Source of the DNA: Sediminispirochaeta smaragdinae DSM 11293
GTDB lineage: Bacteria; Spirochaetota; Spirochaetia; DSM-16054; Sediminispirochaetaceae
Reading direction: 5' to 3'
NCBI RefSeq assembly: GCF_000143985.1
Contig: NC_014364.1
Location: 1,116,001 to 1,180,000, forward strand
DNA: 64,000 bases
Below the pieces are notes generated by a model. It did not search any database. It was given only the letters and a program-made list of their open reading frames with translations, and was not told the origin of the DNA. The stretch's first letter is position 1. The number at the start of each line of letters is the position of its first letter. Both the position numbers and the translations under genes were made by a program. Positions 35,157 to 54,491 of the stretch are shown here, piece after piece.

Positions 35157-35185
35157 ATCAAATAACAACGAAAAAAGAGGAGCAT

Positions 35186-38611: not shown

Positions 38612-38652
38612 GTACAAAACCTGCCCCGGCAGGGAACAGAACGGGGAGCTAT

Positions 38653-39507
38653 GTGATGGTTGGCGAATATAAAAAGGGCGGCCTTGTATTACTCTACGCT
38701 GCGGTGTTGTTTGTCTGTTTGAGCATATTGATTCCATATCTCTGGCTTGTCATCAGTAGTGTCTCCCATCGGGTGGAGTTAACCTCCATACCGCTAAAAT
38801 GGATACCCGATTCGTTAAATCTGGAAAATTACCGCCAGATTGTGACCGGCAGCAGCGGTATCAATGCCTCGCTGAAATATGGATTACTCAACAGCCTGAT
38901 CATCGCAGGGGTTGCTACCCTGTTTTGCCTTTTTGCGGGCTCCCTGGCAGCCTATGCCTTTTCACGGTTGCGGTTCCGGGGAAAAAATGTCGTCTTTTCA
39001 TTTATTCTCGTGACGCAGGTCATGCCGATGATCGTGCTGATCATTCCAATTTACATCATCATGAGCAAGATCGGGTTGCTGAATACCATACCGGCCCTCA
39101 TCATAGCGGACTGTGCATTTATTCTTCCCCTGGTGATTTGGCTGATGCGCAGTTTTTTTGAGTCTATTCCCAGAAGTCTGGAAGAGATGGCGTGTATCGA
39201 TGGTTGTTCCCGCTTTGGAACTATTTTCAGAATTGTTATGCCCCTATCCACACCGGGGCTGGCGGCAAGCGGGATATTTGCCTTTATCATTGCCTGGAAT
39301 GAGTTCTTTTCTGCCCTGATTCTTAGTTCCACAATCAAGTCGAAGACCATCAGTGTGATTATTTCCGAATATTCAAGCAAGGTAGGGGTGGATTATGTTG
39401 CGATGGCCGCGGCAGGTGTTGTTGCCAGTATTCCTCCCGTCCTTTTGGCCTTGTTGTTTCAAAAATATATTGTTCAAGGCTTAACCGCAGGATCTGTAAA
39501 GGGATAA
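38653..39507 (+). CDS. Carbohydrate ABC transporter permease, MalG/UgpE type
   Basis: 284 residues, partner of the preceding permease. Start at GTG 38653 or ATG 38656; GGGGAGC lies just upstream and suits the ATG slightly better. The EAA loop is LEEMACIDGCSRFGTIFRIV then MPLSTPG. It ends QGLTAGSVKG, the typical MalG-like C terminus. The N-terminal periplasmic loop (ELTSIPLKWIPDSLNLENYR) is normal for the family. Confidence 0.93.
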   Translation: MMVGEYKKGGLVLLYAAVLFVCLSILIPYLWLVISSVSHRVELTSIPLKWIPDSLNLENYRQIVTGSSGINASLKYGLLNSLIIAGVATLFCLFAGSLAAYAFSRLRFRGKNVVFSFILVTQVMPMIVLIIPIYIIMSKIGLLNTIPALIIADCAFILPLVIWLMRSFFESIPRSLEEMACIDGCSRFGTIFRIVMPLSTPGLAASGIFAFIIAWNEFFSALILSSTIKSKTISVIISEYSSKVGVDYVAMAAAGVVASIPPVLLALLFQKYIVQGLTAGSVKG

Positions 39508-39558
39508 TCGTTTCGACTTTCTAAAAACAATCCCCGTAAAGGGAAAGGAGTGTTTAGT

Positions 39559-40845: not shown

Positions 40846-40863
40846 TATATAATTCTGACCATG

Positions 40864-40889
40864 GAGGAGCCTTAGCGATAGGGCTCCTC
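40864..40889 (+). terminator. Weak hairpin after the binding-protein gene
   Basis: GAGGAGCC and GGCTCCTC form an 8-bp stem with a 10-nt loop. The following sequence (TGCATATTT) has only a poor U-run, so read-through to the kinase gene is likely. Confidence 0.55.
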
Positions 40890-40904
40890 TGCATATTTCC
40901 GTAG

Positions 40905-40946
40905 AAAGAAATTACGTTCCTTCAATCACCAGGATTCGGAACAGTA
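40905..40946. repeat. Single right end of the inverted-repeat element
   Basis: AAATTACGTT, then CACCAGGATTCGGAACAGTA and GGTAA, matches 21235-21272 at nearly every base. No left end is found nearby. It lies about 20 bp before the PfkB kinase start and separates that gene from the agaS operon. Confidence 0.55.
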
Positions 40947-40961
40947 GGTAAGGAGAGCCCT

Positions 40962-41906
40962 GTGCCAGAAAAAGTGCTTTTTGCCGGTGATGCAAACATT
41001 GATTTCATTTTTTCCGATCTCGATACCCCGCCTCAGGAGGATAGGGAGGTCTTCTGCAAAGGATATACGACCGCGCTCGGCGGTTCCGGTACCATAACCG
41101 CTGCCGCATATGCTCGACTGGGCGGATCGTGTGATTTCTGCGGCCTGCTGGGAGATGACACGAACGGCCGTCAGGTCATGGAGTATCTCAGGAATGCTGG
41201 CGTCGGGCTTACGCTCCTGCGGCGCATGGAAAACCTGGAGACTGGTATCACGGTGAGCATGATACATGGTTCGACTCGTACCCAGGTGACCTATCGTGGA
41301 AGCCTTGATGTAGCGGATGAAACAGAGACCCTCAAACAGGAGATGCACGACTACGGTCATCTCCACCTCTCCGGGATATACGGGACAACGCAATTCCTCC
41401 CGAATGTTACCCAGGTTCTGCAAGCCGCATATGATAAGGGATTGACGACTTCTCTTGATACACAGTGGGATCCCTCCCAAACATGGCCGTTTGCCGATCA
41501 ATGGCTGCCCTATATCACGTGGCTTTTTGTCAATGAATCGGAAGCAATATCCCTTGCAGTTAAGCACTGCGGGATATCGGATAGGAAGCCTGACTGGGAA
41601 ATGGCATGGGAAGCCCTTGCTAAGAAGACCCCTTGTCCAATCATTAAACTGGGACCAAAGGGAAGCTATATGGGAGGGAACCTTTACCCCCCCGTGGATG
41701 TCGATCACGTATATGATCCTACAGGTGCCGGAGACAGCTTTGCCGCGGCGTTTCTGTATGCAACGATCGCAGCGGGACAGGATGCCTGTCGGGCAATTCA
41801 CCTTGCTCAGGCCGCAGGAGCCCTGGCCTGTACCTTTCTCGGCGGTAATTCCGAAAGGTTTACCCGTGAGAAACTCTATTCGATGGTGGAGAACCCCCTC
41901 CTTTAA
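40962..41906 (+). CDS. PfkB-family carbohydrate kinase
   Basis: Cytosolic sugar kinase of 314 residues, GTG start with GGTAAGGAG upstream. The ribokinase/PfkB hallmarks are the GG-rich N-terminal block TTALGGSGTITAAAYARLGG and the C-terminal DPTGAGDSFAAAFLYA, containing the catalytic Asp and anion hole. Substrate is not determined by these motifs. Given agaS and kbaZ/gatZ upstream, phosphorylation of tagatose 6-phosphate to the bisphosphate is the natural missing step, but this is inference. A relic repeat lies between it and that operon. Confidence 0.85.
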   Translation: MPEKVLFAGDANIDFIFSDLDTPPQEDREVFCKGYTTALGGSGTITAAAYARLGGSCDFCGLLGDDTNGRQVMEYLRNAGVGLTLLRRMENLETGITVSMIHGSTRTQVTYRGSLDVADETETLKQEMHDYGHLHLSGIYGTTQFLPNVTQVLQAAYDKGLTTSLDTQWDPSQTWPFADQWLPYITWLFVNESEAISLAVKHCGISDRKPDWEMAWEALAKKTPCPIIKLGPKGSYMGGNLYPPVDVDHVYDPTGAGDSFAAAFLYATIAAGQDACRAIHLAQAAGALACTFLGGNSERFTREKLYSMVENPLL

Positions 41907-42018: not shown

Positions 42019-43719
42019 ATGACGGAAAATCTTCAACTCCTTGAACTGGTTGAAAAGGAACAGCTGGACGAAGTGCTGCGCGGTTTTACCCAGATCACGG
42101 GGGTTTCGAGTTTCATCATCAGTCCCGAGGGCGAGCCAATCAGTGAACAGTACAATTGGACGCATCTGTGTAGTGACTATTGCCGGTCCACAGAGAAGGG
42201 AAAGCAGCTCTGTTATAAAAGCGATCGCTACGGGGCAGAGATGTCGGCGAAGCTGAAAAAGCGTGTCAGTTATACCTGTCTGAATGCCGGATTGATCGAT
42301 TGTACCTCGCCTATCATCGTTGGAAACTACCATATCGCCAGTTTTATGTGCGGCCAAATCCTCTATAAGCCCATCGATGAGGATTGTGCCCGGCGGCATG
42401 CCTGTGCAATAGGAATCAAAGATCTTGATGGCTATCTTCAGGCCGTCAGCAGTATTCCGATTATCAGCCCCGAACGGATGGATGCCATTGTCGATTTCCT
42501 GCAGGTGATAACCCGAACGATAAGTGAACTTGCTTGGAATACGTATGTTCATTCCAAACAGACACGGCGTTACCTGGATCGGATCATCAATATGGTCAGC
42601 GATGGAATTGTCTCGATTGATACGCAGGGGCGAATTTCCATGGCAAATGATGCCGTCGGCTACATGACGGGCTTTAACAAGCATGAGATCATTGGCCAGG
42701 ACTTTTCCGAATTCCTCGGTGATGATGATTCGCTGTCGACCTATGAGAAGATGCTTTCCACCGTTAGGGAAAAGGGCCATGGTAGGGCGGCAATACAACT
42801 TGCCACTGCCTCAGATAAGAAAATCCCCGTCCAGGTCTCCTTTGATAAGGATAAAGAGCAACAGGCCCACCTTGCCTGTGTGGCGGTATTACGGGATGTT
42901 TCTCAGGAGTTTGCCATTGAGCAGTTGAAGGAAGATCTCATCGGTATGATGACGCACGATCTGAAAAACCCTGTTTTTTCCATCCAGAAGGCGATGCAGC
43001 TTTTATCCTCCGGGGTTCTCGGAACCCTGAATCCCGAACAGGATGAGGTGGTAAGGCTTTCTCTTGGTACGACTCAACAGCTTTCGCGAATGGTCATGGA
43101 TTATCTTGATATCTATCAGCATGAAAATGGCGAACTGCGGCTTCGTAAGGAGATCTTGGATATGCGAACGATACTCAGGCAGAGTATCGACCAGATAGAA
43201 TTAATTGCGCAGGAGAAGGACGTCGCTATTGTGTACAATCCTCCGACGGCTGCGTTGAATTTCATGGGCGACCGCTTGCGTCTTATTCGCATATGTCTAA
43301 ACCTATTGGAAAATGCCATAAAATTCAGTCCTTTTGGCGGAACGATTCACATCGAAAGTCGCTATGTTTCTCCCCGTGATTGTCCCTATCTTTCGGAATG
43401 CCTACTTGATCGGGAAAAAGATGAACAACACTACGTATTGACGGAAATGAGCGACCAGGGGCCTGGTATTAAAAAGGGTGCCGAATACGCCATTTTTGAT
43501 AAATTTTCTACTTCCAGATGCCGGGATTCCTGCATCCCGGGAGGGGGGGGACTTGGGCTTGCCTTTTGCAAACTGGCGGTAACGGCTCATCACGGTGTGA
43601 TCGGGGTTGCTTCGCCTGTCTGTTCGGATCGGAAAGGAGAGCTCTACGGAAGCCGTTTCTACTTTCTTCTCCCTGCCGATACGAAGATCAAATTTCAAAC
43701 GGCGGGTATCGAACTATAG
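42019..43719 (+). CDS. PocR-PAS sensor histidine kinase
   Basis: 566 residues, probably cytosolic (no membrane segment seen). The N-terminal about 165 residues are a PocR ligand-binding domain, with its cysteine pattern CSDYCRSTEKGKQLCYKSDR then CLNAGLIDCTSPI and FMCGQIL. A PAS domain follows (RIINMVSDGIVSIDTQGRIS). The HisKA phospho-acceptor is H313 in MMTHDLKNPVFS, and the HATPase has N-box NLLENAIKFSP and G-boxes DQGPGIKKG and GGGGLGLAFCK. PocR domains sense small organic molecules such as propanediol. ATG at 42019 has GGAG upstream. It pairs with the regulator 36 bp downstream. Confidence 0.92.
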   Translation: MTENLQLLELVEKEQLDEVLRGFTQITGVSSFIISPEGEPISEQYNWTHLCSDYCRSTEKGKQLCYKSDRYGAEMSAKLKKRVSYTCLNAGLIDCTSPIIVGNYHIASFMCGQILYKPIDEDCARRHACAIGIKDLDGYLQAVSSIPIISPERMDAIVDFLQVITRTISELAWNTYVHSKQTRRYLDRIINMVSDGIVSIDTQGRISMANDAVGYMTGFNKHEIIGQDFSEFLGDDDSLSTYEKMLSTVREKGHGRAAIQLATASDKKIPVQVSFDKDKEQQAHLACVAVLRDVSQEFAIEQLKEDLIGMMTHDLKNPVFSIQKAMQLLSSGVLGTLNPEQDEVVRLSLGTTQQLSRMVMDYLDIYQHENGELRLRKEILDMRTILRQSIDQIELIAQEKDVAIVYNPPTAALNFMGDRLRLIRICLNLLENAIKFSPFGGTIHIESRYVSPRDCPYLSECLLDREKDEQHYVLTEMSDQGPGIKKGAEYAIFDKFSTSRCRDSCIPGGGGLGLAFCKLAVTAHHGVIGVASPVCSDRKGELYGSRFYFLLPADTKIKFQTAGIEL

Positions 43720-43755: not shown

Positions 43756-44400
43756 ATGGAAGGAGAAAAGCAATCAACGATTTTTATCTGCGATGATCAT
43801 CCTCTCTTTCGCTGCGGTCTGCGTTTAAGTCTGAATCAGCTGTCGAATCTTGAGGTCGTCGGTGAGGCGGAGAACGGCTTTGACGCGGTGGAGCGTATCA
43901 TTGCTTGTAAGCCGGATATGGCATTGGTCGATGTCGATATGCCGGGGCTCTCCGGAATCAGTGCCATCAAGGTTCTTCGCAAGGCCCTGCCGAAGTTGAA
44001 AATTCTTGTATTGTCGGCACTCGAGGATGATCACTATGTCCGTGATGCCATGGCTGCCGGTGCCGACGGCTACCTCCTTAAGTGTGTCGATATCGATGCC
44101 CTGGTTCAGATTATCGGCAGCCTCTGTAAAGGGATTCCTGCGGTTTCTCCCTACCTACTGAATCTGACCATTGATGATCTTTCTGACGCAAAGGATTCCG
44201 GCTCTTCTCTGACCACAAGAGAGAAGGATGTTTTACGATGTATGCTGGAAGGAAAAGAGAATAAAGAGATAGCGGATGAGCTTTTCATCAGCTGCGAGAC
44301 GGTAAAAAGTCATATAAAACATATTTTCCGCAAGTTAGAGGTGACCAACCGGGTCCAGGCCGTTCAGGTTGCCGCAGAAAAAAAGATTCTTAACTCTTAG
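43756..44400 (+). CDS. NarL/LuxR-type response regulator
   Basis: 214 residues. Receiver domain with acidic pair D13-D14 (FICDDHPLFRCGLR), phospho-acceptor D59 (MALVDVDMPGLSG) and the conserved Lys in GYLLKC. The C-terminal LuxR helix-turn-helix is LTTREKDVLRCMLEGKENKE then IADELFISCETVKSHIKHIF. It is the cognate partner of the PocR kinase. Only 149 bp separate it from the molybdenum-hydroxylase operon in the same direction, so that operon is its likely target. Confidence 0.94.
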   Translation: MEGEKQSTIFICDDHPLFRCGLRLSLNQLSNLEVVGEAENGFDAVERIIACKPDMALVDVDMPGLSGISAIKVLRKALPKLKILVLSALEDDHYVRDAMAAGADGYLLKCVDIDALVQIIGSLCKGIPAVSPYLLNLTIDDLSDAKDSGSSLTTREKDVLRCMLEGKENKEIADELFISCETVKSHIKHIFRKLEVTNRVQAVQVAAEKKILNS

Positions 44401-44440
44401 TACAGTCAATTAATTACTGCAGGGATCATATCCTCTTAAA

Positions 44441-44475
44441 ATCCCCCTTTTGGGGGATAATCTTCCCCCCTTTTG
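44441..44475 (+). promoter_or_regulatory. Palindrome and direct repeats upstream of the hydroxylase operon
   Basis: ATCCCCCTTTTGGGGGAT is a perfect 18-bp palindrome (44441-44458). It could act as a terminator for the response regulator or as an operator. CCCCCTTTTG is repeated directly about 22 bp further on (44466-44475), two helical turns away, which favours a protein-binding site. It sits 75-110 bp before the first hydroxylase gene. Confidence 0.5.
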
Positions 44476-44549
44476 TGCGATTTACCGCTGGTTGTACCTC
44501 TTCTATAGTGTAAGCAGATATGTAGGAGAACAAGGGAGGTTCGAAAATT

Positions 44550-45050
44550 ATGGTTAAGGTCGACGAAGAGGGCGGCGCCAGAAGAATAACGCTTCACATA
44601 AACGATGATGAGCACCATTTGGTCGTCGAACCCCAAGAGACCCTGCGTGAGGTTTTGCACGACAGGATCGGCTTAACAGGAACGAAGGAGATGTGCGATA
44701 GAGGTGCCTGCGGCTCCTGTACCGTAATCATGGACGGCAGGCCGGTGCTTTCCTGCATGACGCTGGCGATTGAATGCGAGGGACACCGGATTGAAACCAT
44801 CGAACAGATCAACAAAATGGGGCACCCGCTGGTACAGGCGTATGCCGACAACCATGCAATGCAGTGTGGCTATTGTACTCCGGGTTTTGTGGTAACGGCG
44901 AAGGCCTTGTTGGACCGAAATGCAAATCCGTCGAAGGAAGAGATTATTTCGGCTCTGGAGGGCAACATCTGCAGATGTGGAACATATCCGGCGCATGTAA
45001 GAGCGGTGCAGGATGCAGCCAAAAGATTACAGGAGAAGGAGGCAGTCTGA
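44550..45050 (+). CDS. Molybdenum hydroxylase, 2Fe-2S subunit (CoxS/XdhC-like)
   Basis: 166 residues with two 2Fe-2S clusters. Plant-type ferredoxin cysteines are in MCDRGACGSCTVIMDGRPVL then SC; the second cluster is in QCGYCTPGF and NICRCGTYP. This small subunit passes electrons from the molybdenum site to FAD. GGGAGG lies 12 nt before the ATG. It is the first gene of an eight-gene operon, and the molybdopterin subunit starts one base after its stop. Confidence 0.94.
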   Translation: MVKVDEEGGARRITLHINDDEHHLVVEPQETLREVLHDRIGLTGTKEMCDRGACGSCTVIMDGRPVLSCMTLAIECEGHRIETIEQINKMGHPLVQAYADNHAMQCGYCTPGFVVTAKALLDRNANPSKEEIISALEGNICRCGTYPAHVRAVQDAAKRLQEKEAV

Positions 45051-45051
45051 A

Positions 45052-47535
45052 ATGTCCGACGAACCGAAAATCATGGAATATGAGCCCCTGGTTCATGACA
45101 GATACATCCCGGAAGCCTTTGAGTTTCTTGGAAAACGGGGCATAGCGCGAATGGACGGCAGGGAAAAAGCGGGCGGTACGGCTCAATATACCCGTGATGT
45201 GAGCCTTCCCGGCATGCTCTATTGCAAGATCATGATGTCACCCTATGCGAATGCCGTTATCAAAAGTCTCGATACATCAAAGGCTGAAGCCTTGCCCGGA
45301 GTACGTGCGATTTTACGTTTCGATGACCCGGAGCTGCAGAACAAGGCGCTGCTCGGGACGAATACGAAGTTTAATGCGGGCCACCTCGCTTCTGACGGGC
45401 AGGCTTTTTACAAAGGCAAAGAAGAACTTGCCGTTACCCAGGAGCAGTGGATGCAGGGGGGCGGTCGGGTTCTTGACGGCTTTGCATGGTGGGAAGGTGC
45501 CCATTCGGGTGTTGCCGTCGCCGCCGAAAGCCTTCAAATAGCAGAAGAGGCTATTAATCTGGTAGAGGTTGAATGGGAAGAGCGGGATGTGGTTCTTAAT
45601 CCCATAGAGGCCCTTAAACCCGGTGCTCCTCCCGCTGCCCCGGAGCTGAACGACAAAAACAACATGCTCAGAAAGGTTCGTATCGAACACGGGGATGTAG
45701 AGAAGGGTTTCCAGGAAGCGGATAAGGTTATCGAATTCAGCATCAAGCGGAACCCCTATTCGGTAGCCGACGCCGAGCCCATGAGTGATGTCATTCTCTG
45801 GAGGGGAGACAACATGGAGATTTGGGCCCATCAGCAGCAAGCCTATGACGGGAAGTGCCTGCTGAGCGCGGTAACGGGCGTTCCTCTCAATAAGATAAAA
45901 CTCCATGTTCCGTATCAGGGCTGCCATTTCGGTGGAGGCGGAAACCCCATGATGCACCATACCCACGGGTTGCATGTGGTCAGTGCCATCCTATCGAAGC
46001 GCACAGGGCGGCCGGTCAAAACCCTCTACAATCGACGGGACAATTTTTATTCCCTTTCTCAGGATGCGGATTCCAATACCCACTTCAAGGTTGGTTTTAC
46101 GAATGACGGAACCATCACTGCGGTCAAGATTGATAATATTGTGGCAAAGATGGGACAGTACGGTATCGATCACTTTGAAGACAACACCCGTATTCCCAAC
46201 CTGCTTCTTAACTACGTAGAGGCCCAAACAAATGTTGCACCGGCCTGGTGGTTCCGCTGCGAACAGAACCACAACTGTTTCTGCTTTAGTGCGGTCTTCG
46301 CTCACGTTGCTGAAGCAACGGGCCTGGATCCGACGGTCGTTGCCCTGAAGAACGATGGTGTAGGCGGCAAGGACATGAAGTATCTTTCCAAATTCAAGAA
46401 AGAACACGGATTTCCGGATCGGGACAGCCTCGCCGAAATCATTAAGAAGGGTAAAGCGGCCATAGAGTGGGACAAGAAGTGGCATGAACCTGGAAAAAAG
46501 ATGCTGCCGAATGGAAAGCTGCACGGCATCGGTTTTACCTGGGACCATGAATGGGACGACAACAGAGGATCTGCAAGTGCCGGGCTTATTATGCATTGTG
46601 ATGGTACGGTGGACATCCTGGCACAAAAGTCGGACGACGGCGTCAATCCCATGACTACCCACTGTGAGATCGTTGCAGAGGAGCTCGGGCTGAAACTGGA
46701 AGATGTTAACTGGCGCTTTTTTGAAGAGACCGGTTTCCAGATGATGACTCCTGACGGTTCCTGCAACTTGTGTACCGACGCATATGTAAGCTGCAACATG
46801 GCAAGGAAAGCCAAGAAGAAACTCCTCGAATACGCCACAACACCCATCAAACTTATTGAAATTGAATATCCTCCTGCTTTTCCCAACCGAAAACCGGAAG
46901 AACTTGACGTCAAGGACAGTATGGTTTTTGTAAAGGCTGATCCGAGTATCAGTGTACCTGTAGCGGAAGTGGTCAAACGGACCGTATTGAATCAGGCCGG
47001 TAGCCGGGCTCCGCTCTTTGAGTGGGCCTATCACCGCCAGGGCCGCTATGGTTGTGAAGAGGGACGGCACCGTCTGTGTCGGCAGGGATATTTTTCAGAA
47101 GTTGAGGTTGATCCTGAAACGGGTGAAGTGGATATCAAGAAAATCGTCAATATCAACGACGTAGGCAAGGCCTTAAGTCCCGACACCTGCGAAGGCCAGC
47201 AATACGGTGGTGCGTATATGGGAGCAGGGCGAGGCATGGCAGAAGAGGTTGTGTACGACCCGAAAACCGGTGTCAAATTGAATGGTAATTTGATCGACTA
47301 TAAGGTTTGGACATTTCGCGATATCGAAGCCACGGAAAACATTCTTGTAGAGACCGGAATGGGCTATGGCCCCTATGGATTGGTCGGTATAGGAGAGGAT
47401 TGTGCTACTGTCGTTCCCTTTGTAATCGGGAATGCGATCCATAACGCTATTGGGGAATGGGTCGATGAACATCCGATGACGCCGAATAAGGTCATCAAAG
47501 CAATCCAAAAAGCCAAAGAGAAGGGGGTCTTCTAA
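45052..47535 (+). CDS. Molybdenum hydroxylase, molybdopterin-binding subunit (divergent)
   Basis: 827 residues from the ATG at 45052, with GGAGAAGGAGG upstream. Domain order is that of xanthine dehydrogenase/CO dehydrogenase large subunits: N-terminal aldehyde-oxidase domain (RMDGREKAGGTAQYTRDVSL then PGMLY) and two Mo-cofactor domains. The usual GGGFGGK loop is YQGCHFGGGGNP (about 288-299), and the RGxGxP region is degenerate (WWFRCEQNHN). The catalytic Glu is kept in VGIGED (E782). This is a divergent subfamily; the substrate cannot be assigned. Likely cytosolic, since no Tat signal is seen. Confidence 0.9.
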   Translation: MSDEPKIMEYEPLVHDRYIPEAFEFLGKRGIARMDGREKAGGTAQYTRDVSLPGMLYCKIMMSPYANAVIKSLDTSKAEALPGVRAILRFDDPELQNKALLGTNTKFNAGHLASDGQAFYKGKEELAVTQEQWMQGGGRVLDGFAWWEGAHSGVAVAAESLQIAEEAINLVEVEWEERDVVLNPIEALKPGAPPAAPELNDKNNMLRKVRIEHGDVEKGFQEADKVIEFSIKRNPYSVADAEPMSDVILWRGDNMEIWAHQQQAYDGKCLLSAVTGVPLNKIKLHVPYQGCHFGGGGNPMMHHTHGLHVVSAILSKRTGRPVKTLYNRRDNFYSLSQDADSNTHFKVGFTNDGTITAVKIDNIVAKMGQYGIDHFEDNTRIPNLLLNYVEAQTNVAPAWWFRCEQNHNCFCFSAVFAHVAEATGLDPTVVALKNDGVGGKDMKYLSKFKKEHGFPDRDSLAEIIKKGKAAIEWDKKWHEPGKKMLPNGKLHGIGFTWDHEWDDNRGSASAGLIMHCDGTVDILAQKSDDGVNPMTTHCEIVAEELGLKLEDVNWRFFEETGFQMMTPDGSCNLCTDAYVSCNMARKAKKKLLEYATTPIKLIEIEYPPAFPNRKPEELDVKDSMVFVKADPSISVPVAEVVKRTVLNQAGSRAPLFEWAYHRQGRYGCEEGRHRLCRQGYFSEVEVDPETGEVDIKKIVNINDVGKALSPDTCEGQQYGGAYMGAGRGMAEEVVYDPKTGVKLNGNLIDYKVWTFRDIEATENILVETGMGYGPYGLVGIGEDCATVVPFVIGNAIHNAIGEWVDEHPMTPNKVIKAIQKAKEKGVF

Positions 47536-47536
47536 C

Positions 47537-48508
47537 ATGGTACGGTTCAAACATTTTGACGCTTCAACAGTAGAAGAAGCGGTCGAGCTCCTATACAGGT
47601 TTGAAGGCAGGGCAAAAGTGATAGCAGGCGGTACAGATATCGTCGGCTTTTACAAAGACAATATCCTGCCGACACCCTACGAGGCATTAATCAATATCAA
47701 GACCATTCCGGGGCTCGAGGAGATAAAGGAAGAGGATGGGTTTTTACGAATCGGAACCCTGGTTAGGCTTGAAGATATCGCACACAATACAGCGGTCCAG
47801 GAAAACTATACTGCGCTGGCCCTTGCCGCACAGCATGCGGCCTCTCCCCACATCCGAGAAATGGGGACTATCGGCGGAAATGTCTGCCAGAATTCGCGGT
47901 GCTGGTATTTCAGAACCCCGAATAACCGTTTTTCCTGTGCCAGAAAGGGCGGAGATGAGTGCTTTGCTTCAGAAGGAGATAATCGTTATCACTCGATTTT
48001 TGGCGATGTAAAGGATTGTCTGGCGGTGAATCCGAGCGATACGCTTCCTGCACTGATTGCCCTTGGGACAAAGATCGTAACCTCCAAGCGGACCCTTGAT
48101 ATCACAGAGATGTTTCCGGAAAAGGATCCGACGAGAATGCATACTCTCGATCCGGATGAGATTATTACCGAATTTCAGATTTCGGCCCCTGCTGCTGGAA
48201 TGAAGAGTTCATGGAAAAAGTTCGCTATTCGTAAGTCCATCGATTTCCCAGTTGTCAACTGTGCAGCCGCCGTTACCATAGCGGATGGAAAGGTTGAGGA
48301 TGCGATGCTTTGCTTGAATGCTGTCTATTATAAACCCTACGTTCCTGCGAGGGCGGTCGCCTATCTTAAGGGGAAGGTCCTGGACGAAGAGGTCGCCGAA
48401 ACCACGGGAGAGGCGGCCGTTTGGGGTGCAAAACCTCTGGCCATGAACGAATACAAAATTCAGATTGCAAAAGGTCTTATCAAACAGACCCTGTTGGCCT
48501 GCAGGTAG
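47537..48508 (+). CDS. Molybdenum hydroxylase, FAD-binding subunit with Cys-rich loop
   Basis: 323 residues, CoxM/XdhB type. FAD-binding motifs are AKVIAGGTDIVGFYKDN and REMGTIGGNVCQNSRCWYFR. The central region has five cysteines (C117, C122, C134, C142, C161: CARKGGDECFASEGDNRYHS, then DC). A comparable insertion in the beta subunit of 4-hydroxybenzoyl-CoA reductase binds an extra 4Fe-4S cluster, so one is possible here. One base separates it from the previous stop. FAD would hand electrons to NAD or, given the context, to the Etf encoded downstream. Confidence 0.92.
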   Translation: MVRFKHFDASTVEEAVELLYRFEGRAKVIAGGTDIVGFYKDNILPTPYEALINIKTIPGLEEIKEEDGFLRIGTLVRLEDIAHNTAVQENYTALALAAQHAASPHIREMGTIGGNVCQNSRCWYFRTPNNRFSCARKGGDECFASEGDNRYHSIFGDVKDCLAVNPSDTLPALIALGTKIVTSKRTLDITEMFPEKDPTRMHTLDPDEIITEFQISAPAAGMKSSWKKFAIRKSIDFPVVNCAAAVTIADGKVEDAMLCLNAVYYKPYVPARAVAYLKGKVLDEEVAETTGEAAVWGAKPLAMNEYKIQIAKGLIKQTLLACR

Positions 48509-48577
48509 CCGGTTCATGAGGTCCGGCCGGTGTCGGCCGGGCCGTTTCGATGTAATAACGCCCAAGGAGGAAGCCCT

Positions 48578-49663
48578 GTGTCAACATTGTGGAATACCCG
48601 ATATGAGGAATTGACTGAATTTATAAAAGAAAAGCCGCAGGTCGTTATAAAGGAGGACAGTGTCAGCATCGATGAGGCTGTACGGCAGGATTTTTATAAA
48701 AAGTTCAACAGCACGCGGAGCTCCTTCCTTGCCGAATACTATTCAGATTGGTTGGATGAAGCCCAATTTCTCAGCACAAAATATAGTAGAGTCGAAGGAG
48801 CGCTACGGCAACGACTGCAGCTGGAATCTATTCTTATGCCGGTTTCTTTACGGCGATTTCTTTCCGACCCGATAAACGAGGTTACCAGGGAGCTGTTTGA
48901 TCCTCTTTTTGAATTACTTCAGGAAAAAATCGAACCGGAGGAATTCGAAATAAAGGCGCATGAAAATCTTCGCGATTCTTTTCGTAAACTGTATCAGACA
49001 GGGTATATCAACTGGTTTGTTCTCTCGCTTATGGAAAAAATCGAGCCTGAAGCCATCTTTTCCGTGCCCCTTCCCGAGCCTTCATCCAAGCAGATTATTA
49101 AACATCGTGATGAGGTTAGAGAGCATGTGCCTACGCCTTCTCCTACACGGACATTGGGATTTGGGGTGGAGCGTCGGGAGATTGTTTCGGTTCCCGATTT
49201 CATTGTCCATAGTGCGCGTCTTGGTAAGTATGTTGCATTTCGGACAAGCCTCGGAAAGGCAATCTGGAAGGCATCGTACTACAGCGAAAATCGAAACTGG
49301 TTTTCCATCGCCGACATGATTGACTCCTACGGGGTCTCCGAGCTGCAGCCGGATCTTTTACTCTACATTGGTGACAATCTTGAGGACCTCTCTCTTGTGG
49401 CGGATGCCGAGGAATTTTGCCGCCCGGATATGGTTGTTTTCTTTACCGATCAATTGACTGGAGAGAGGTATCTCATAAACAAAAAAATGGACGATGTAAG
49501 AATGGCCCATGAAATTCTCAAACCAGCTAAAGGGAGTGCTGTTATTGCAAAAGATCATTTGCCTCCTGAGGCAATAAAGGATCTGGACCGGCATACGGAA
49601 GTAATCCATTTCGGCTTTAATAATCTAAAGTGGGAGATAATGCTGCACCTGCTTGAAGTATGA
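48578..49663 (+). CDS. Unknown 361-residue protein in the hydroxylase-Etf operon
   Basis: GTG start at 48578 with a strong AAGGAGG site; an upstream in-frame ATG lies in a spacer with no site. No known domain is recognised. The N-terminal half is charged and helical (LSTKYSRVEGALRQRLQLES), with no membrane or signal segment. A proline-rich linker (REHVPTPSPTRTL) leads to a C-terminal half with mixed strands and helices (KYVAFRTSLGKAIWKASYYS; LLLYIGDNLEDLSL). Its single Cys argues against a metal cluster. Fixed between the FAD subunit and etfB, it may be an assembly factor or a substrate-handling subunit; both are guesses. Confidence 0.85.
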   Translation: MSTLWNTRYEELTEFIKEKPQVVIKEDSVSIDEAVRQDFYKKFNSTRSSFLAEYYSDWLDEAQFLSTKYSRVEGALRQRLQLESILMPVSLRRFLSDPINEVTRELFDPLFELLQEKIEPEEFEIKAHENLRDSFRKLYQTGYINWFVLSLMEKIEPEAIFSVPLPEPSSKQIIKHRDEVREHVPTPSPTRTLGFGVERREIVSVPDFIVHSARLGKYVAFRTSLGKAIWKASYYSENRNWFSIADMIDSYGVSELQPDLLLYIGDNLEDLSLVADAEEFCRPDMVVFFTDQLTGERYLINKKMDDVRMAHEILKPAKGSAVIAKDHLPPEAIKDLDRHTEVIHFGFNNLKWEIMLHLLEV

Positions 49664-49681
49664 GAAATCACGGAGGAAATC

Positions 49682-50482
49682 ATGTCTCTTAACATCGTGG
49701 TATGTATAAAACAGGTTCCAAACCCCGATTATTTTTCAAAGATCACCTTGGATCCGGAGACCGGGGCGATTAGTCGGAAAAATATTCCAACGATACTGAA
49801 CCCGGTAGATGAAAACGCCATAGAAGAAGCGCTCAGGCTTCGCGAACGATTTTCTGGGAAGGTCACGGCGATCAGCATGGGCCCGCCCCAGGCAAAGGAG
49901 GTTCTCGATTGGGCGTTGACATTGGGAGTCGATGAATCGGTGCTTCTCTGTGATCGGGCCTTTGCCGCGGCCGATTCGCTTGCCACCGCCTATGTCCTGG
50001 CTGCGGGTATCAGAAAGATCGGCAATGTCGATATCGTTTTGTGCGGAAACGAATCGGTAGACGGCGCGACCGAACAGGTGGGACCCCAGGTTGCCGAGTT
50101 GCTGGATATTCCCCACATCTGTAATGCGACGGATATCTCTTTGCCGAATGGCAGGCAGGCTGTGGTCAGGCGGAATATCGAGTATGGCCATCTGACAATT
50201 GAAGGGTGTGTGCCGCTCCTTATCACCGTGTCGAGGGAAATAAACCAACCGAGAACGGCCACGGCCGAAGGCATCCTTACCTTGATGGACAAGGTGTCGC
50301 GAACATGGGGGGTAAAGGACATTGAGGTGGACAACGACGCCATCGGGCTTGCCGGTTCTCCGACACGGGTAGGAAAGAGCTATGAGCAGAAACTCGAACG
50401 GGAACGAATGATTCTTACTGGTTCCGTGGATGAGATGGTCGCAGCTGCCATCAAAAGGCTCAAGGCTGAGGCGCTTGTATAG
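49682..50482 (+). CDS. etfB: Electron transfer flavoprotein, beta subunit
   Basis: 266 residues. Family signatures: IVVCIKQVPNP at the N terminus, NPVDENAIEEALRLRE, and the AMP/FAD-binding CGNESVDGATEQVGPQVAEL (common form CGKQ.IDGDT.QVGP). It forms a heterodimer with EtfA. The presence of EtfBA directly after a molybdenum hydroxylase suggests transfer of its electrons to a dehydrogenase, quinone or bifurcating partner. No such partner is encoded next to it. GGAGG upstream of the ATG; etfA follows after 15 bp. Confidence 0.93.
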   Translation: MSLNIVVCIKQVPNPDYFSKITLDPETGAISRKNIPTILNPVDENAIEEALRLRERFSGKVTAISMGPPQAKEVLDWALTLGVDESVLLCDRAFAAADSLATAYVLAAGIRKIGNVDIVLCGNESVDGATEQVGPQVAELLDIPHICNATDISLPNGRQAVVRRNIEYGHLTIEGCVPLLITVSREINQPRTATAEGILTLMDKVSRTWGVKDIEVDNDAIGLAGSPTRVGKSYEQKLERERMILTGSVDEMVAAAIKRLKAEALV

Positions 50483-50497
50483 AGAGGGAGCGAAAGA

Positions 50498-51496
50498 ATG
50501 AATGCAATACACGAGGTGTGGATCTGGGCGGAACAACGAGATGGAAGGCTGATGGATGTTTCCCTTGAGATTCTTGGAAAGGCTTCCGAACTTGCAGAAG
50601 AGATAGGAGGGGGTACCGCCGCGATACTCATTGGTGACGAGCTTTCGCCCCTGGCCCGGGAGTTGATCGCCTATGGTGCGGATAAAGTCTATCTTTTCAG
50701 CGATCCCCGGCTTACCTATTATCAAAGCGATGCATACACAAGGCTCATTAGCGATCTCCTTGAGAAACAGCAGCCGGAAATCTTGCTTTTGGGTGGTACC
50801 ACCATTGGGATGGATCTGGCCCCCAGCGTTGCGGCAAGGATAAAGACCGGTTTAACGGCCCACAGCTGCAAACTCGAGATTGATAAAAGCGGAGACAAAC
50901 CGTTATTGATGGCGGCCGTCCCCGGTTGGGGGGGCGGAATGATTGTCAATATCGCCTGTCCGGAACATCGGCCTCAAATGGTTACGGTGCAACAGGGCGT
51001 GATGGAGAAACCTCCGCGCGATGACCATCATTCCGGAGAACTCATCCCCATGGAAGTAAAACTCAATGAACGTGATTTTCGGGTGAAGTGCATCGAAATG
51101 GTTGAAACCATTCCGGAGGGGCCGCAAATCGATACCTCGGATGTTGTGGTCGTCGGAGGATACGGCATGAAATGCCAGGGATCCTTACTGCCCCTGGAGG
51201 AGCTGACTGATCTGCTCCACGGCGCCTTGGGCGGTACGCGTCCGGCCCTGGACGAGGGATGGATCCCCGAATGCAGCATGATCGGGGTGAACGGGAAGGC
51301 TATAGGTCCAAAGTTGTTGATTACCATCGGAACATCGGGTGCAAATCATTATACAGCCGGGTTTGTCAAAGCAGGTACGGTAATGGCCATAAACAGCGAT
51401 CCGGATGCGCCGATATTCGATGTCTGCGATATCGGTATTGTCGGAGATGCTTTAGAGGTGGTTCCTGCGATGGTAAAGGCCTTGAAGGCCCTGTAG
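50498..51496 (+). CDS. etfA: Electron transfer flavoprotein, alpha subunit
   Basis: 332 residues. The C-terminal FAD-binding domain is present: GGYGMKCQGSLLPLEELTDL, GATRPALDEGW-like GGTRPALDEGWIPE, then KLLITIGTSGANHYTAGFVK and INSDPDAPIFDVCDIGIVGD. The common 'QxGxTG' and 'GISGAxQH' motifs are altered (MIGVNGKAIG; GTSGANHY), so FAD potential or binding may differ from well-known Etfs. No extra ferredoxin domain is fused. GGGAGCG precedes the ATG. Confidence 0.93.
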   Translation: MNAIHEVWIWAEQRDGRLMDVSLEILGKASELAEEIGGGTAAILIGDELSPLARELIAYGADKVYLFSDPRLTYYQSDAYTRLISDLLEKQQPEILLLGGTTIGMDLAPSVAARIKTGLTAHSCKLEIDKSGDKPLLMAAVPGWGGGMIVNIACPEHRPQMVTVQQGVMEKPPRDDHHSGELIPMEVKLNERDFRVKCIEMVETIPEGPQIDTSDVVVVGGYGMKCQGSLLPLEELTDLLHGALGGTRPALDEGWIPECSMIGVNGKAIGPKLLITIGTSGANHYTAGFVKAGTVMAINSDPDAPIFDVCDIGIVGDALEVVPAMVKALKAL

Positions 51497-51536
51497 CCAA
51501 GAAGGCGGATCGCCGCCGGGGAGGATAGGTGTTCAG

Positions 51537-51842
51537 ATGAAACAAGATGCCATTTTGATTACAAATCGGGATAATGTTGCCACCGCTTTGCGGGATGTGG
51601 AAGCGGGGCAGACCTGCCATTTCCTGAAAGGAGAACAGGCGGTGAGTGTGGTTGTGCAAGATGCCATTGTCTATGGCCATAAATTTGCCGTTGTGGATAT
51701 TCCCAAGGGCGCCGACATCATAAAGTATGGCGAGGTAATGGGGCGGGCCACCGCAGACATTCCCCGGGGAGCCCATGCGCATGTCCAGAATATCGAAAGC
51801 CTTCGCGGACGTGGTGACCTGAAACATAAGGGAGGTACATGA
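51537..51842 (+). CDS. Altronate/galactarate dehydratase-like, small (SAF) subunit
   Basis: 101 residues forming the SAF domain that in UxaA and GarD is the N-terminal part: DNVATALRDVEAGQTCHFLK, VVDIPKGADIIKYGEVMGRA then TADIPRGAHAHVQNIESLRG, with HVQN typical of the family. In many bacteria the enzyme is split into this and the large part. These enzymes dehydrate sugar acids using Fe2+. It lies 41 bp after etfA and 1 bp before the large subunit. Confidence 0.9.
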   Translation: MKQDAILITNRDNVATALRDVEAGQTCHFLKGEQAVSVVVQDAIVYGHKFAVVDIPKGADIIKYGEVMGRATADIPRGAHAHVQNIESLRGRGDLKHKGGT

Positions 51843-51843
51843 G

Positions 51844-53004
51844 ATGAATTTCCTCGGATATGCACGAAAAGATGGCGGCGTGGGAACTCGAAACGATGTA
51901 GGAATCCTTTCAACGGTGATTTGTGCGAATGAAGTGGCGGAAAGAATCGCTCGGCAGGTCTCCGGGACAACACCTTTTTTGCATCACCAGGGATGCTGCC
52001 AGACCCCCGTTGATATTAATAGAGTAACTGATGTCCTGATCGGATTGGGGAAGAATCCCAATCTGGCGGCAGTTTTGTTGGTCAGTCTTGGTTGTGAAAG
52101 TACAAACGTCGACCGGGTTGCAAAGTCCATCGCGGAAACGGGCAAGCCTGTTGAAATTGTTACAATCCAGGAAGAGGGTGGGGCAGCCAAGGCTGTCGCA
52201 AAGGGCATTCTGCTGGCCCAAGCTATGGTGACGGCGGTAAGCGAGCTGAAACGGGAACCCTTTCCCATCAGTGAACTGGTACTTGGCCTCAAATGCGGCA
52301 GTTCCGATACTACATCGGGACTCTCTTCAAACCCGGTCGTTGGAATCCTTTCCGATCTCATTGTAAAAGCAGGGGGGACATCTATTTTAGGAGAGGTAAC
52401 CGAATTTATCGGCGCCGAACATCTTTTGGCACGCCATGCAAAGAATCAAGAGACTGCCGATGCAATTCTCTCTCTGGTGAACCAGATGGAGAACCGTGCC
52501 ATGCAGATGGGCTTTGATATCCGGGGAGGCCAGCCGACCGGGGGAAATATCAAGGGTGGGCTCACGACCATCGAAGAAAAGTCTTTGGGAGCGATCGCCA
52601 AGGCGGGATCTGCAAAAATTCAGGCGGTGTATGAATACGGTGTTCGTCCCGATGTCGAAGGTTTGGTCGTCATGAACTCTCCCGGACGGGAACCGGAACT
52701 TCTTACCGGTTTGGCGGCGGCGGGAGCTACCCTCATCACATTTACAACGGGACGGGGGGCACCTCAGGGGTTTCCCTTCGTCCCTGTGATCAAGGTGACC
52801 GGAAACGAAAAGACGTGGAGTAACCTGAAAGACCACATGGATTTCAATGTCTCCCCGGTCATAGACGGTAGCGAGAGCCTTACGGATGCAGGAAACCGCC
52901 TCCTTGATGAGGTGGTTCGAGTTGCTTCGGGCAAAAAGACAAAGGCGGAAATATCAGGTTACACCAGTTCCATGGATATCTATATGACAGGGCCGGTTAT
53001 ATAG
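51844..53004 (+). CDS. Altronate/galactarate dehydratase-like, large subunit
   Basis: 386 residues, UxaA/GarD C-terminal family. Diagnostic segments are FLGYARKDGGVGTRNDVGIL, then HHQGCCQTPVD, VSLGCESTNVDRVAKSI, LKCGSSDTTSGLSSNPVVGI and the cysteine/histidine iron-site regions. The C-terminal ITFTTGRGAPQGFPFVPVIK is also typical. The substrate is probably a hydroxy acid or sugar acid, but a (R)-sulfolactate lyase-like activity (SuyAB has the same architecture) is an alternative. It closes the operon begun at 44550. Confidence 0.9.
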   Translation: MNFLGYARKDGGVGTRNDVGILSTVICANEVAERIARQVSGTTPFLHHQGCCQTPVDINRVTDVLIGLGKNPNLAAVLLVSLGCESTNVDRVAKSIAETGKPVEIVTIQEEGGAAKAVAKGILLAQAMVTAVSELKREPFPISELVLGLKCGSSDTTSGLSSNPVVGILSDLIVKAGGTSILGEVTEFIGAEHLLARHAKNQETADAILSLVNQMENRAMQMGFDIRGGQPTGGNIKGGLTTIEEKSLGAIAKAGSAKIQAVYEYGVRPDVEGLVVMNSPGREPELLTGLAAAGATLITFTTGRGAPQGFPFVPVIKVTGNEKTWSNLKDHMDFNVSPVIDGSESLTDAGNRLLDEVVRVASGKKTKAEISGYTSSMDIYMTGPVI

Positions 53005-53016
53005 CCGAACCTCCTT

Positions 53017-54303
53017 TTATCCGACGAGACGCTTCGCCATGTTCACCCAGCCGGTTATGTTGGATGGATTCCCTCCGAGGGTATGGTTGTCTTTCATGAT
53101 GATCTCGACAACGTTGTTGTCCCGCGATATTTCCAGCTTCCTTTTGAGTTCCTTTTCTGCCGTCTCCATGTCTATTTCGGGCTGGGCCAAGGGGGTGGGT
53201 GAGGGCTTCATGGAATAGATGTACTCTTTCCGTAAAAGCTCACTCATCTTTTCCGGATCGGCCCAGGGCGAAACCGAAACGCGTCTGAGATTTTTTGCGG
53301 CCTTAACAATATGGAATCGGGGGTCCATGCCTTCGCAGCATCCGTAGCAGGTGAGCCCGAAGCGCTCCATGATCTCTTTCTGATACGGGAAGATAAACTC
53401 GGCAAACATATCCGGAGAAATTCCTACGGTGATCTGACTCTCTGCCAGCCCCCACATCGTGGAGAGTTTCGCCGGTTCAAGGGACGGCAGTTCGTCGGTA
53501 TATCCGAGTCCGCCGGAACCGATAAACGTGTAATTATTATTGGGATAGAGGAGTCCCCCCTGCTCCAGGAAGTCCAGTTTTTTGAGTGTCCCCTGCTGTA
53601 GTCGCTTCATTAAAGCGTGAATACCGTCCGGCTGATCAAAGAAATCAAGCATCATCTTGTCCATTCCCCGCAGCTGAGCGAACTCGTCGGTCATGCCAAA
53701 GGACCAGAACCATACGGTTCTGTTTTGTATTTTCAGAAAGGCGCCCATGATCTCTTCGGCAAGCTCCAGTAGTTTTTCCGTGGTGCCATAATCCACAACG
53801 ATTTCCGGATCTAAAAGGTTATCGATTTCATCATAGGAATCCATGATGGATTCGATGTGGTAGGCTCCCCCGTCCAGTTGCGTGGTAAAGGCAAGACTCT
53901 TTTCTTCCTTGCCGCGGATTCTCCAGGGTGTTTCCGTATACACGTGGGGAAGATCAAAGACCGGTTCGACAACATAATCGTCGTTCATCTCGTCTCCCCA
54001 GAAGATTTGCTTTCGCAACGTAAGCTCCCAATGCCGAGCAATATCGTTTCGGCAGACCAGGCTCTCCTCCGGAATGATCTCATGCCAGCCGTTTTCAGGA
54101 TCGGCAAAGACCATGGGACGTTCATTATCCAAGCGGTTATGTCGGCTCCAGAGCCTCTTCCTCTCTTCCATTTCCGGCCTTTCCGCAATCTCCCTGACCC
54201 GTGCCGCAAGGCGGGTCAGACACTCTTTATCCTGAGTGTCCATACGTAAATCACTGTAATCGCAGTCCGTATAATCGACACGCACATTTAAATGGCGATA
54301 CAT
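53017..54303 (-). CDS. Uroporphyrinogen decarboxylase-family protein (methyltransferase-like)
   Basis: 428 residues from the ATG at 54303, which has AAGGAGA upstream. The second half has the URO-D superfamily fold segments: FFDQPDGIHALMKRL, LAESQITVGISPDMFAEFIF, YGCCEGMDPRFHIVKAAKNL then RRVSVSPWADPEKMSELL. In cobamide-dependent methyltransferases a cysteine in such a region binds Zn. True haem-pathway HemE is shorter, so this is one of the catabolic URO-D paralogues, common beside sugar or methylated-compound gene clusters. A perfect 18-bp palindrome 24 bp upstream of the start suggests tight regulation. Convergent with the preceding operon. Confidence 0.78.
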   Translation of the reverse strand: MYRHLNVRVDYTDCDYSDLRMDTQDKECLTRLAARVREIAERPEMEERKRLWSRHNRLDNERPMVFADPENGWHEIIPEESLVCRNDIARHWELTLRKQIFWGDEMNDDYVVEPVFDLPHVYTETPWRIRGKEEKSLAFTTQLDGGAYHIESIMDSYDEIDNLLDPEIVVDYGTTEKLLELAEEIMGAFLKIQNRTVWFWSFGMTDEFAQLRGMDKMMLDFFDQPDGIHALMKRLQQGTLKKLDFLEQGGLLYPNNNYTFIGSGGLGYTDELPSLEPAKLSTMWGLAESQITVGISPDMFAEFIFPYQKEIMERFGLTCYGCCEGMDPRFHIVKAAKNLRRVSVSPWADPEKMSELLRKEYIYSMKPSPTPLAQPEIDMETAEKELKRKLEISRDNNVVEIIMKDNHTLGGNPSNITGWVNMAKRLVG

Positions 54304-54326
54304 GGTCGTCTCCTTATCGTGTTTAT

Positions 54327-54344
54327 ATCGTGTACGTACACGAT
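54327..54344 (-). promoter_or_regulatory. 18-bp palindromic operator upstream of the URO-D-like gene
   Basis: ATCGTGTACGTACACGAT is a perfect palindrome, 23 bp upstream of the start codon at 54303. Its form (TCGTGTAC-GTACACGA) resembles GntR- or LacI-family operators. The LacI gene at 54828 is a possible source of its ligand-binding protein. Confidence 0.6.
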
Positions 54345-54491
54345 ACGGTATCATAGTTTATGAAAAAGTCAAGAGATGTGTGGGAGGTCTTTTGTCGATG
54401 TTGATAGGGCCGAAGTCTCTATACTATTCTATGGTTTCATGAAATTAGCAGAACTGAAGGCTTGTTAGCGTATGATTAATGGAGGTTTATC

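Follow-up and report, generated by a model that had tools for sequence, protein, structure and literature searches.

A conserved operon of Sediminispirochaeta smaragdinae brings together a molybdenum hydroxylase, an electron transfer flavoprotein, a split UxaA-type lyase and a candidate assembly factor

We analysed a 64,000-nucleotide stretch of the genome of the spirochaete Sediminispirochaeta smaragdinae DSM 11293 (contig NC_014364.1, positions 1,116,001 to 1,180,000; hereafter the window), which lies in a single contig of 4,653,970 bases and carries, at window positions 44550–53004, eight tightly packed genes on the plus strand. In order, these encode the 2Fe-2S, molybdenum (Mo) cofactor and FAD subunits of a xanthine-oxidase-family Mo hydroxylase, a protein of unnamed family that we call P4, the two subunits of an electron transfer flavoprotein (Etf), EtfB and EtfA, and the small (SAF-domain) and large subunits of a split UxaA-type lyase. 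A first-pass annotation made from the sequence alone had given this order and had placed a PocR-type kinase and a response regulator directly upstream, and both points are borne out by the open reading frames (ORFs), their Pfam domains and their spacing: all eight genes are present, the gaps between them are, in order, 1, 1, 69, 18, 15, 40 and 1 bp, and 149 bp separate the regulator gene from the first gene of the operon (Table 1). The eight genes form a real unit, rare within the genomes searched. Our best explanation of the whole, to which we give a probability of roughly 0.42, is that this is a horizontally moving, inducible operon for the conversion of a hydroxy-aldehyde to an acid and then to a 2-oxo acid, with electrons passing to EtfBA. 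It had been allowed at the outset that the same eight genes might already be described as a named pathway; none was found in the open-licence PMC literature searched, in which Mo hydroxylases and orphan EtfAB pairs are both mentioned, unlinked, in an excerpt of PMC4791908. The kinds of parts are known, and the new points are their combination, the altered Etf and the P4 family.

Evidence that the genes belong together comes from their recurrence. Among 392 genomes of the window's phylum (Spirochaetota), a match to the Mo subunit at E ≤ 1e-100 occurs in two, those of S. smaragdinae itself and of a congener (G375), and P4 was found in the same two, with a search that used one P4 sequence and that remote P4 proteins may escape. 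In the congener all ten genes (kinase, regulator and the eight operon genes) stand in the same order and are 94–100% identical to those of the window. A scan of contigs with the Mo subunit returned seven stretches that fit the pattern, four of which encoded relatives. A locus in a Desulfobacteraceae metagenome-assembled genome (MAG), L016, holds the complete set in the same order, with the kinase and two regulators, at identities to the window of 61.5% (kinase), 66% and 67% (regulators), 79% (2Fe-2S), 86% (Mo), 78% (FAD), 57% (P4), 70% (EtfB), 70% (EtfA), 74% (SAF) and 81% (UxaA). A Coatesbacteria contig, L017, shows the order Mo-FAD-P4-EtfB, at 78% identity for Mo (from residue 258), 71% for FAD, 44% for P4 and 76% for the first half of EtfB. 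An Mo trio at 36–37% identity, accompanied by a P4-like gene, is also present in two Dehalococcoidales MAGs (L018, L019), and no Etf or UxaA match was found beside either trio. Since the gene order recurs in the congener, in L016 and, in part, in L017, the set is no chance neighbourhood, and the earlier claim of one co-inherited unit, for which gene-order conservation had been named as the check, holds. In a tree of 38 Mo subunits, built after removal of one Mo ORF shorter than 550 residues, the window, L016 and L017 form one group (support 100/100), nested in a group of 14 rows with Desulfobacterota enzymes that has weaker support (82/97). From an Mo subunit this similar in two phyla we infer that the operon moved horizontally.

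The domains of the 2Fe-2S, Mo-cofactor and FAD subunits all score above their Pfam cut-offs, which places the trio in the xanthine-oxidase family. A Gly-Glu pair near the C terminus of the Mo subunit (G780, E781) is invariant in all six Mo subunits aligned, and E781 is presumably the catalytic Glu. The PDB chain closest to the Mo subunit is the alpha subunit of 4-hydroxybenzoyl-CoA reductase (4-HBCR; 1rm6_A, E 4e-45). Like 4-HBCR and other three-subunit enzymes of the family in its subunits, domains and a four-Cys insert in the FAD subunit, the trio nevertheless falls below every NCBIfam cut-off listed: the Mo subunit scores 270 bits with the XdhA model (cut-off 780) and 262 bits with that for 4-HBCR alpha (cut-off 994.55), and the three 4-HBCR equivalog models give 145, 261.6 and 134.4 bits against cut-offs of 257.8, 994.55 and 404.55. 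The best NCBIfam match of the FAD subunit is 4-HBCR beta, again below cut-off. Its insert aligns with PDB chain 5y6q_B and with PaoB (5g5g_B), the four Cys are kept in all eight FAD subunits aligned, and the insert is a candidate site for an extra 4Fe-4S cluster. Unlike 4-HBCR, the trio shares its operon with EtfBA, P4 and the lyase. A twin-arginine (Tat)-like N terminus is present on the 2Fe-2S subunits of L018, L019 and L062 and absent from those of the window and L016.

Relatives of the Mo subunit occur in 10 of the 395 Desulfobacterota genomes searched. We tabulated the context of twelve related loci besides L016 (L078 and L084–L094), whose Mo subunits are 34–51% identical to that of the window (44–51% in ten of them). 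Genes like NuoF and/or NuoE/G lie beside the trio in eight (L084, L085, L086, L087, L089, L090, L091 and L092), and five encode enzymes that convert a 2-hydroxy acid to a 2-oxo acid: an Ldh/Mdh-type enzyme in L084, a D-2-hydroxyacid dehydrogenase with a LUD protein in L088, GlcD-type enzymes in L089 and L091, and LutB in L092. Short-chain dehydrogenases and branched-chain-type ATP-binding cassette (ABC) genes are each found in five of the twelve loci and 2-oxoacid:ferredoxin oxidoreductase in two; Etf, UxaA and P4 genes are found in none, within the stretches fetched. By analogy, the common scheme of these loci would be the oxidation of an alcohol to an aldehyde, a 2-hydroxy acid and then a 2-oxo acid, and the Desulfobacterota clusters L084–L092, in which an Mo hydroxylase is joined by a NuoEF-like module and by dehydrogenases for 2-hydroxy acids or alcohols, have the look of a so far undescribed route for the use of diols or hydroxy-aldehydes. 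These NuoEF-linked clusters hold the closest relatives of the trio outside the conserved set, and both they and the window have a redox module beside the trio. The end product in the five loci with 2-hydroxyacid-oxidising enzymes would be a 2-oxo acid, as we propose for the window, but the clusters have a NuoF/NuoE-like module where the window has EtfBA, 2-hydroxyacid dehydrogenases where it has the lyase, and no P4. In the window, EtfBA would fill the slot of the NuoEF-like module and the dehydratase that of the 2-hydroxyacid dehydrogenase. Because the dehydratase slot needs a 2,3-dihydroxy acid, the substrate would be a glyceraldehyde- or sugar-like aldehyde. We hold this combination of aldehyde oxidation and dehydration tentatively, at a little under an even chance.

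Electrons might instead flow in reverse, from NADH through EtfBA to an Mo enzyme that acts as a reductase in the manner of 4-HBCR or urolithin C dehydroxylase, with the lyase placed elsewhere in the pathway. We consider this unlikely. The resemblance of the Mo and FAD subunits to 4-HBCR and the four-Cys insert would fit a reductase, CarD and other NADH-linked Etfs of reductases are among the nearest Etfs of solved structure, and reductive enzymes of the xanthine-oxidase family are known and thought to be under-counted (excerpt of PMC12771579). However, the insert is shared with the aldehyde oxidases 5y6q_B and PaoB, which outrank 4-HBCR beta among PDB chains; several of the related trios have genes for oxidative dehydrogenases of 2-hydroxy acids and alcohols as neighbours; and a hydroxy-acid lyase has no obvious place in aromatic dehydroxylation. 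Somewhat less probable again is that an aromatic, heterocyclic or organic acid is hydroxylated, with electrons going to Etf and the product being dehydrated. By family, as the scores with the XdhA and 4-HBCR alpha models show, heterocycle or aromatic chemistry would be conceivable, yet both scores are far under their cut-offs, no ring-opening enzyme, CoA ligase or hydrolase was recognised among the eight genes (P4 having no assigned function), and UxaA-type lyases are known for dihydroxy acids. As several of the nearest relatives of the trio sit with alcohol dehydrogenases, 2-hydroxyacid dehydrogenases and 2-oxoacid:ferredoxin oxidoreductase, an aldehyde-to-acid step fits better than the organic acid or heterocycle first suggested as the hydroxylated substrate, for which we found no support.

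The operon's EtfBA is the sole Etf pair in the genome. Searches of that genome with three family models, which remote types may escape, gave no match to Acyl-CoA_dh_1, FAD-oxidase_C or Fer4_ETF_QO; the same models matched in 9, 11 and 3 of 14 control genomes, respectively. We therefore rejected an Etf that serves an acyl-CoA, lactate-type or ETF-QO/FixX system elsewhere in the genome. With a single Etf and no match to the three usual partner families searched, the Mo hydroxylase is the likely partner, and exclusion and gene linkage together make electron transfer between Mo enzyme and Etf likely. Partners of xanthine-oxidase-family enzymes are usually NAD, ferredoxin, oxygen or cytochrome-like proteins, and those of Etf are usually acyl-CoA, lactate and amine dehydrogenases (in part from excerpts of PMC12630350 and PMC7688666); the Etf-using nicotine enzyme in the latter excerpt is no Mo hydroxylase.

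Among PDB entries, EtfB matches 6fah (CarD), 5ol2, 7qh2 (LctB), 7koe and 4kpu best, and these five also head the matches of EtfA, which suggests descent from bifurcating Etfs. Our motif comparison took in the window, L016, six plasmid relatives and, for a partial EtfB alone, L017. At the EtfA position of LctC R205, a residue whose replacement in Ldh-EtfAB (R205A) abolished bifurcation (excerpt of PMC9232219), the window and L016 have Val and all five PDB chains shown and all six plasmid relatives have Arg; this comparison covered those chains and relatives, and the Arg may be general among Etfs, in which case its loss would mark an unusual Etf. At the position of LctC D189 the window and L016 have His and the six plasmid relatives Asp. 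The EtfB motif for the bifurcating FAD (b-FAD), DGDTAQVGP, reads DGATEQVGP in the window, which keeps the first Asp, Gly, Thr, Gln, Val, Gly and Pro and loses the second Asp; the motif is intact in five of the six plasmid relatives. The EtfB motif for NAD, RXFXG, intact in all six, is RAFAA in the window and L016 and MAFAG in L017. Both the window and L016 retain SPT, a three-residue insertion lies near the EtfB N terminus relative to bifurcating Etfs, and the window Etf keeps the small Gly reported as a requirement for b-FAD (excerpt of PMC12630350).

With the bifurcation Arg replaced by Val, EtfBA is probably a plain electron carrier; b-FAD may still bind, and standard bifurcation is unlikely. 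A true bifurcating or confurcating complex of Mo hydroxylase and EtfAB, joining the substrate, NAD and ferredoxin, accordingly strikes us as improbable: the best matches of both subunits, the retained small Gly and the NuoEF-like modules beside related trios would favour it, but the Arg-to-Val change, the effect of R205A and the altered DGDTAQVGP and RXFXG motifs speak against it, and we set a standard bifurcating Etf aside as our principal explanation on the first of these. Bifurcating EtfAB (CarDE, LctBC, Bcd-EtfAB, FixAB) gives the best sequence matches and shares SPT and most of the b-FAD motif with the window, and differs from it in Arg205 and the altered motifs and in its partner, no acyl-CoA or FAD-oxidase_C-type partner having been found in the genome. 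The EtfAB of Clostridium propionicum acryloyl-CoA reductase is the top NCBIfam match for EtfA and the second for EtfB, although the window proteins score below the cut-offs and no acyl-CoA dehydrogenase was found in their own genome; that EtfAB is described as bifurcating-like yet apparently non-bifurcating (excerpt of PMC5861303).

The last two genes carry the SAF, GD_AH_second and GD_AH_C domains of a UxaA/GarD-type enzyme, split over two proteins. The large subunit, product of the sole GD_AH_C gene of the genome, matches GarD (6u7l, E 2.4e-56) over almost its full length and does not reach the cut-off of the GarD model TIGR03248 (227.9 against 730.85 bits). SuyAB, the sulfolactate sulfo-lyase, is likewise a split SAF/UxaA enzyme, which made a SuyAB-like sulfolactate route one of the candidates. 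Plasmid-borne lyases of Sporomusa termitida, Escherichia albertii and Metabacillus also have their SAF-like and large UxaA subunits encoded by separate genes. The nearest plasmid relative of the large subunit, from Sporomusa termitida (68% identical), has as neighbours a LarA-type nickel-pincer isomerase, a tripartite tricarboxylate transporter and a mandelate racemase-family gene; the Metabacillus relative sits with an alpha-ketoglutaric semialdehyde dehydrogenase and a dihydrodipicolinate-synthase-family gene, and the Escherichia albertii relative with a 2-keto-3-deoxygluconate permease. By analogy, these contexts suit 2-hydroxy or sugar acids. In contrast to the window, the neighbours of all three are sugar-acid genes or a LarA-type isomerase, and no Mo hydroxylase is annotated there in a gene table that is incomplete. 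On the Sporomusa termitida plasmid (L068:10663-13489) the isomerase beside the split lyase belongs to nickel-pincer NCBIfam group 22, a model that names no substrate; glycerate racemisation is reported for LarA-type enzymes (excerpt of PMC11770544). That the Etf and UxaA genes adjoin the Mo trio by accident, or share a promoter with it but act in different pathways, is very improbable and largely refuted, for although neither gene occurs in the twelve related loci within the stretches fetched, L016 has kept the order while its sequences drifted to identities of 57% (P4) to 86% (Mo), and in L017 EtfB occupies the corresponding position. A chance neighbourhood of etfBA and uxaA, once named as what would undo the proposal, was itself undone by L016.

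P4 matches nothing in Pfam or NCBIfam at E 0.001, no PDB sequence at E 1 and nothing on plasmids. A seven-member profile gave 7 matches in Dehalococcoidales MAG G394 and 8 in G395, the latter including at least one second piece of one frame; because the profile rows were drawn from the same five genomes searched, recovery in five of five is circular, and the value lies in the further copies. The profile also matched 2 of 197 genomes in the class of the Dehalococcoidales MAGs and 4 of 85 in that of the Desulfobacteraceae MAG, the centre genome being included in each count. The family is seen in Spirochaetota, Desulfobacterota, Coatesbacteria and Chloroflexota. An Mo hydroxylase subunit gene is found no more than 5 kb from 19 of the 24 P4 ORFs that we examined (14 of 19 after removal of five found via the Mo subunit), in a count that omits the window and congener copies, leaves the partial hits L036, L037 and L047 unseparated and includes near-identical copies from two genomes (L054, L055). 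Of the five misses, L049 and L067 share neighbours, L052 and L063 are near a contig end, and L057 adjoins XdhC. Nearly all 2Fe-2S ORFs at P4 loci start with a Tat-type signal (for example SRREFLKDAG), and the window and L016 proteins lack one. On this evidence P4 belongs with the Mo enzyme rather than with Etf, UxaA or export, and from its linkage we regard P4 as a candidate assembly or maturation factor for Mo hydroxylases. In a structural model the N-terminal part is helical (block pLDDT 83–93 to residue 130) and the C-terminal part could not be modelled; the model has no Foldseek match at E ≤ 0.001, and the best Z in a second comparison is 5.3. An XdhC-type chaperone was rejected, there being no Pfam match to XdhC_CoxI or XdhC_C at E 0.001; for a NarJ/TorD-like chaperone there was no sequence match, and the fold comparison, which yielded no usable match, excludes no family. 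Rumen Dehalococcoidales MAGs and relatives (L049–L067, L018, L019) have several P4 genes, mostly beside Tat-type Mo trios, which may amount to an enlarged group of Mo hydroxylases that are exported. A family of small proteins of 119–134 residues, 36–77% identical to one another (Table 1), is encoded beside or close to P4 or Mo hydroxylase genes; the two members scanned (L019, L061) have no Pfam match.

The spacer between the regulator gene and the 2Fe-2S gene contains the palindrome AATCCCCCTTTTGGGGGAT at 44440–44458, followed by GATTTACC and a promoter-like TTTACC-17-TATAGT at 44481–44509. The same element is present in the congener. L016 has a like element before its 2Fe-2S gene and before its second regulator, the latter copy found by eye and not listed by the pattern searches, and the rest of the spacer sequence differs. 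Match counts for the palindrome are weak: with one mismatch allowed the window contains a single match, a number equalled or exceeded in 26 of 100 shuffles; L016 contains two, a number equalled or exceeded in 2 of 100. Matches to a sigma-70-type promoter in the region are not above those in shuffles. It is the conservation of the element and not these counts that leads us to read it as the putative operator of the response regulator. PocR is known as a 1,2-propanediol-type sensor. Retention of the kinase, the regulator and the promoter-region element in L016 supports an inducible system.

Taken together, these comparisons suggest the following route. The PocR-type kinase and NarL-type regulator would sense a small polyol-like compound and switch on the operon through the element at 44440–44509. 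The cytoplasmic Mo hydroxylase, assembled with the help of P4 as a factor specific to its family, would oxidise a three-carbon or sugar-like hydroxy-aldehyde to a 2,3-dihydroxy acid, and electrons would pass from Mo through the two 2Fe-2S clusters to FAD (and the candidate 4Fe-4S cluster) and on to the dedicated EtfBA, the final acceptor possibly being NAD+. The SAF/UxaA lyase would then dehydrate the acid to a 2-oxo-3-deoxy acid, or to pyruvate if the substrate has three carbons. The surroundings of L016, a single genome, would suit a pyruvate-forming substrate: upstream of the kinase lies a phosphoenolpyruvate synthase gene, which scores 718 bits with one model (cut-off 598) and 706.6 bits with a second (cut-off 739.75), and the operon is followed by genes for a UgpC/MalK-like ABC importer (below cut-off), XdhC, SufS and a NifU_N protein. 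Substrates on record for S. smaragdinae include glycerol, mannitol, ribose and D-xylose (excerpt of PMC3035371), besides galactose and fumarate. Of the pathway in the first-pass annotation, the parts that stand are the unit itself, the Etf as likely electron acceptor (three usual partner families not being found), inducibility and a dehydratase acting on the product; the organic acid or heterocycle as substrate does not.

Several points weigh against this route. The best NCBIfam match of the FAD subunit and the nearest PDB chain of the Mo subunit, below cut-off as they are, belong to the reductive 4-HBCR; the eight genes include no 2-oxo-3-deoxy acid kinase or aldolase and no transporter, and neither L016 nor L048 has a match to the upstream PfkB gene. 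The Mo-to-Etf step is suggested by exclusion from three families, and proteins outside these could exchange electrons with Etf. L016 and L017 are MAG contigs, for which misassignment is possible, and L017 begins within the Mo gene and stops within EtfB, leaving EtfA, SAF and UxaA beyond the contig. The context queries were chosen from the twelve related loci themselves, so that the tabulation describes a pattern, and NuoF was not seen in L078 (a 3-kb contig), L088, L093 or L094. In its boldest form, for which the odds are clearly short of even, the reading would make this the first xanthine-oxidase-family Mo hydroxylase with its own Etf, together with a self-contained two-step route from hydroxy-aldehyde to 2-oxo acid and a family of P4 assembly factors. 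An Mo hydroxylase with a dedicated Etf would add to the partners known for both families. The Etf could also illustrate how a bifurcating module is reduced to a simple carrier when the aldehyde is so strongly reducing that bifurcation is not required, and P4 would join XdhC as an accessory family of Mo enzymes. As the type strain is cultured, the pathway can be tested.

Table 1 Genes and elements of the operon region (window positions) and members of the small-protein family (positions in their own loci).
Feature	Position	Strand	Remarks
PocR-domain sensor histidine kinase	42019..43719	+	ATG at 42019; Pfam PocR 161.5 bits, PAS, HisKA, HATPase_c
NarL/LuxR-type response regulator	43756..44400	+	Pfam Response_reg and GerE
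Candidate conserved promoter/operator element	44440..44509	+	Palindrome, then GATTTACC, promoter-like boxes
2Fe-2S subunit, xanthine-oxidase-family Mo hydroxylase	44550..45050	+	Pfam Fer2, Fer2_2; no Tat signal
Mo-cofactor subunit, 827 residues	45052..47535	+	ATG read at 45052 (queries started at 45055); Ald_Xan_dh_C, MoCoBD_1, MoCoBD_2
FAD subunit with four-Cys insert	47537..48508	+	Pfam FAD_binding_5, CO_deh_flav_C
P4, 361 residues, unnamed family	48578..49663	+	GTG start behind GGAGGAAG; no Pfam match
EtfB, probable bifurcating-type ancestry, altered motifs	49682..50482	+	Pfam ETF
EtfA, Val at the b-FAD N5-contact Arg	50498..51496	+	Pfam ETF and ETF_alpha
SAF-domain small subunit, split UxaA-type lyase	51537..51842	+	Pfam SAF 32.2 bits
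UxaA/GarD-type large lyase subunit	51844..53004	+	GD_AH_second and GD_AH_C (GD_AH_C 300 bits)
Small-protein family members	L018:720-1079, L019:13453-13833, L055:1202-1588, L061:2083-2472, L063:2026-2430		

Upstream of the kinase gene, positions 35135–41906 encode an AgaS-family isomerase, a GatZ/KbaZ-like protein, sugar ABC permeases with a binding protein, and the PfkB kinase, with a DeoR-type regulator on the opposite strand at 34261–35022. This looks like an ordinary amino-sugar or galactitol-type operon, and we rejected it as part of the system on the missing PfkB matches noted above. A 445-residue protein encoded on the minus strand at 53017–54354, with no Pfam match at E 0.001, converges on the end of the eight-gene operon. 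The whole genome has 11 MoCoBD_2 matches, two further ones of which lie at G000:C1:1107156-1110754, about 5 kb before the window.

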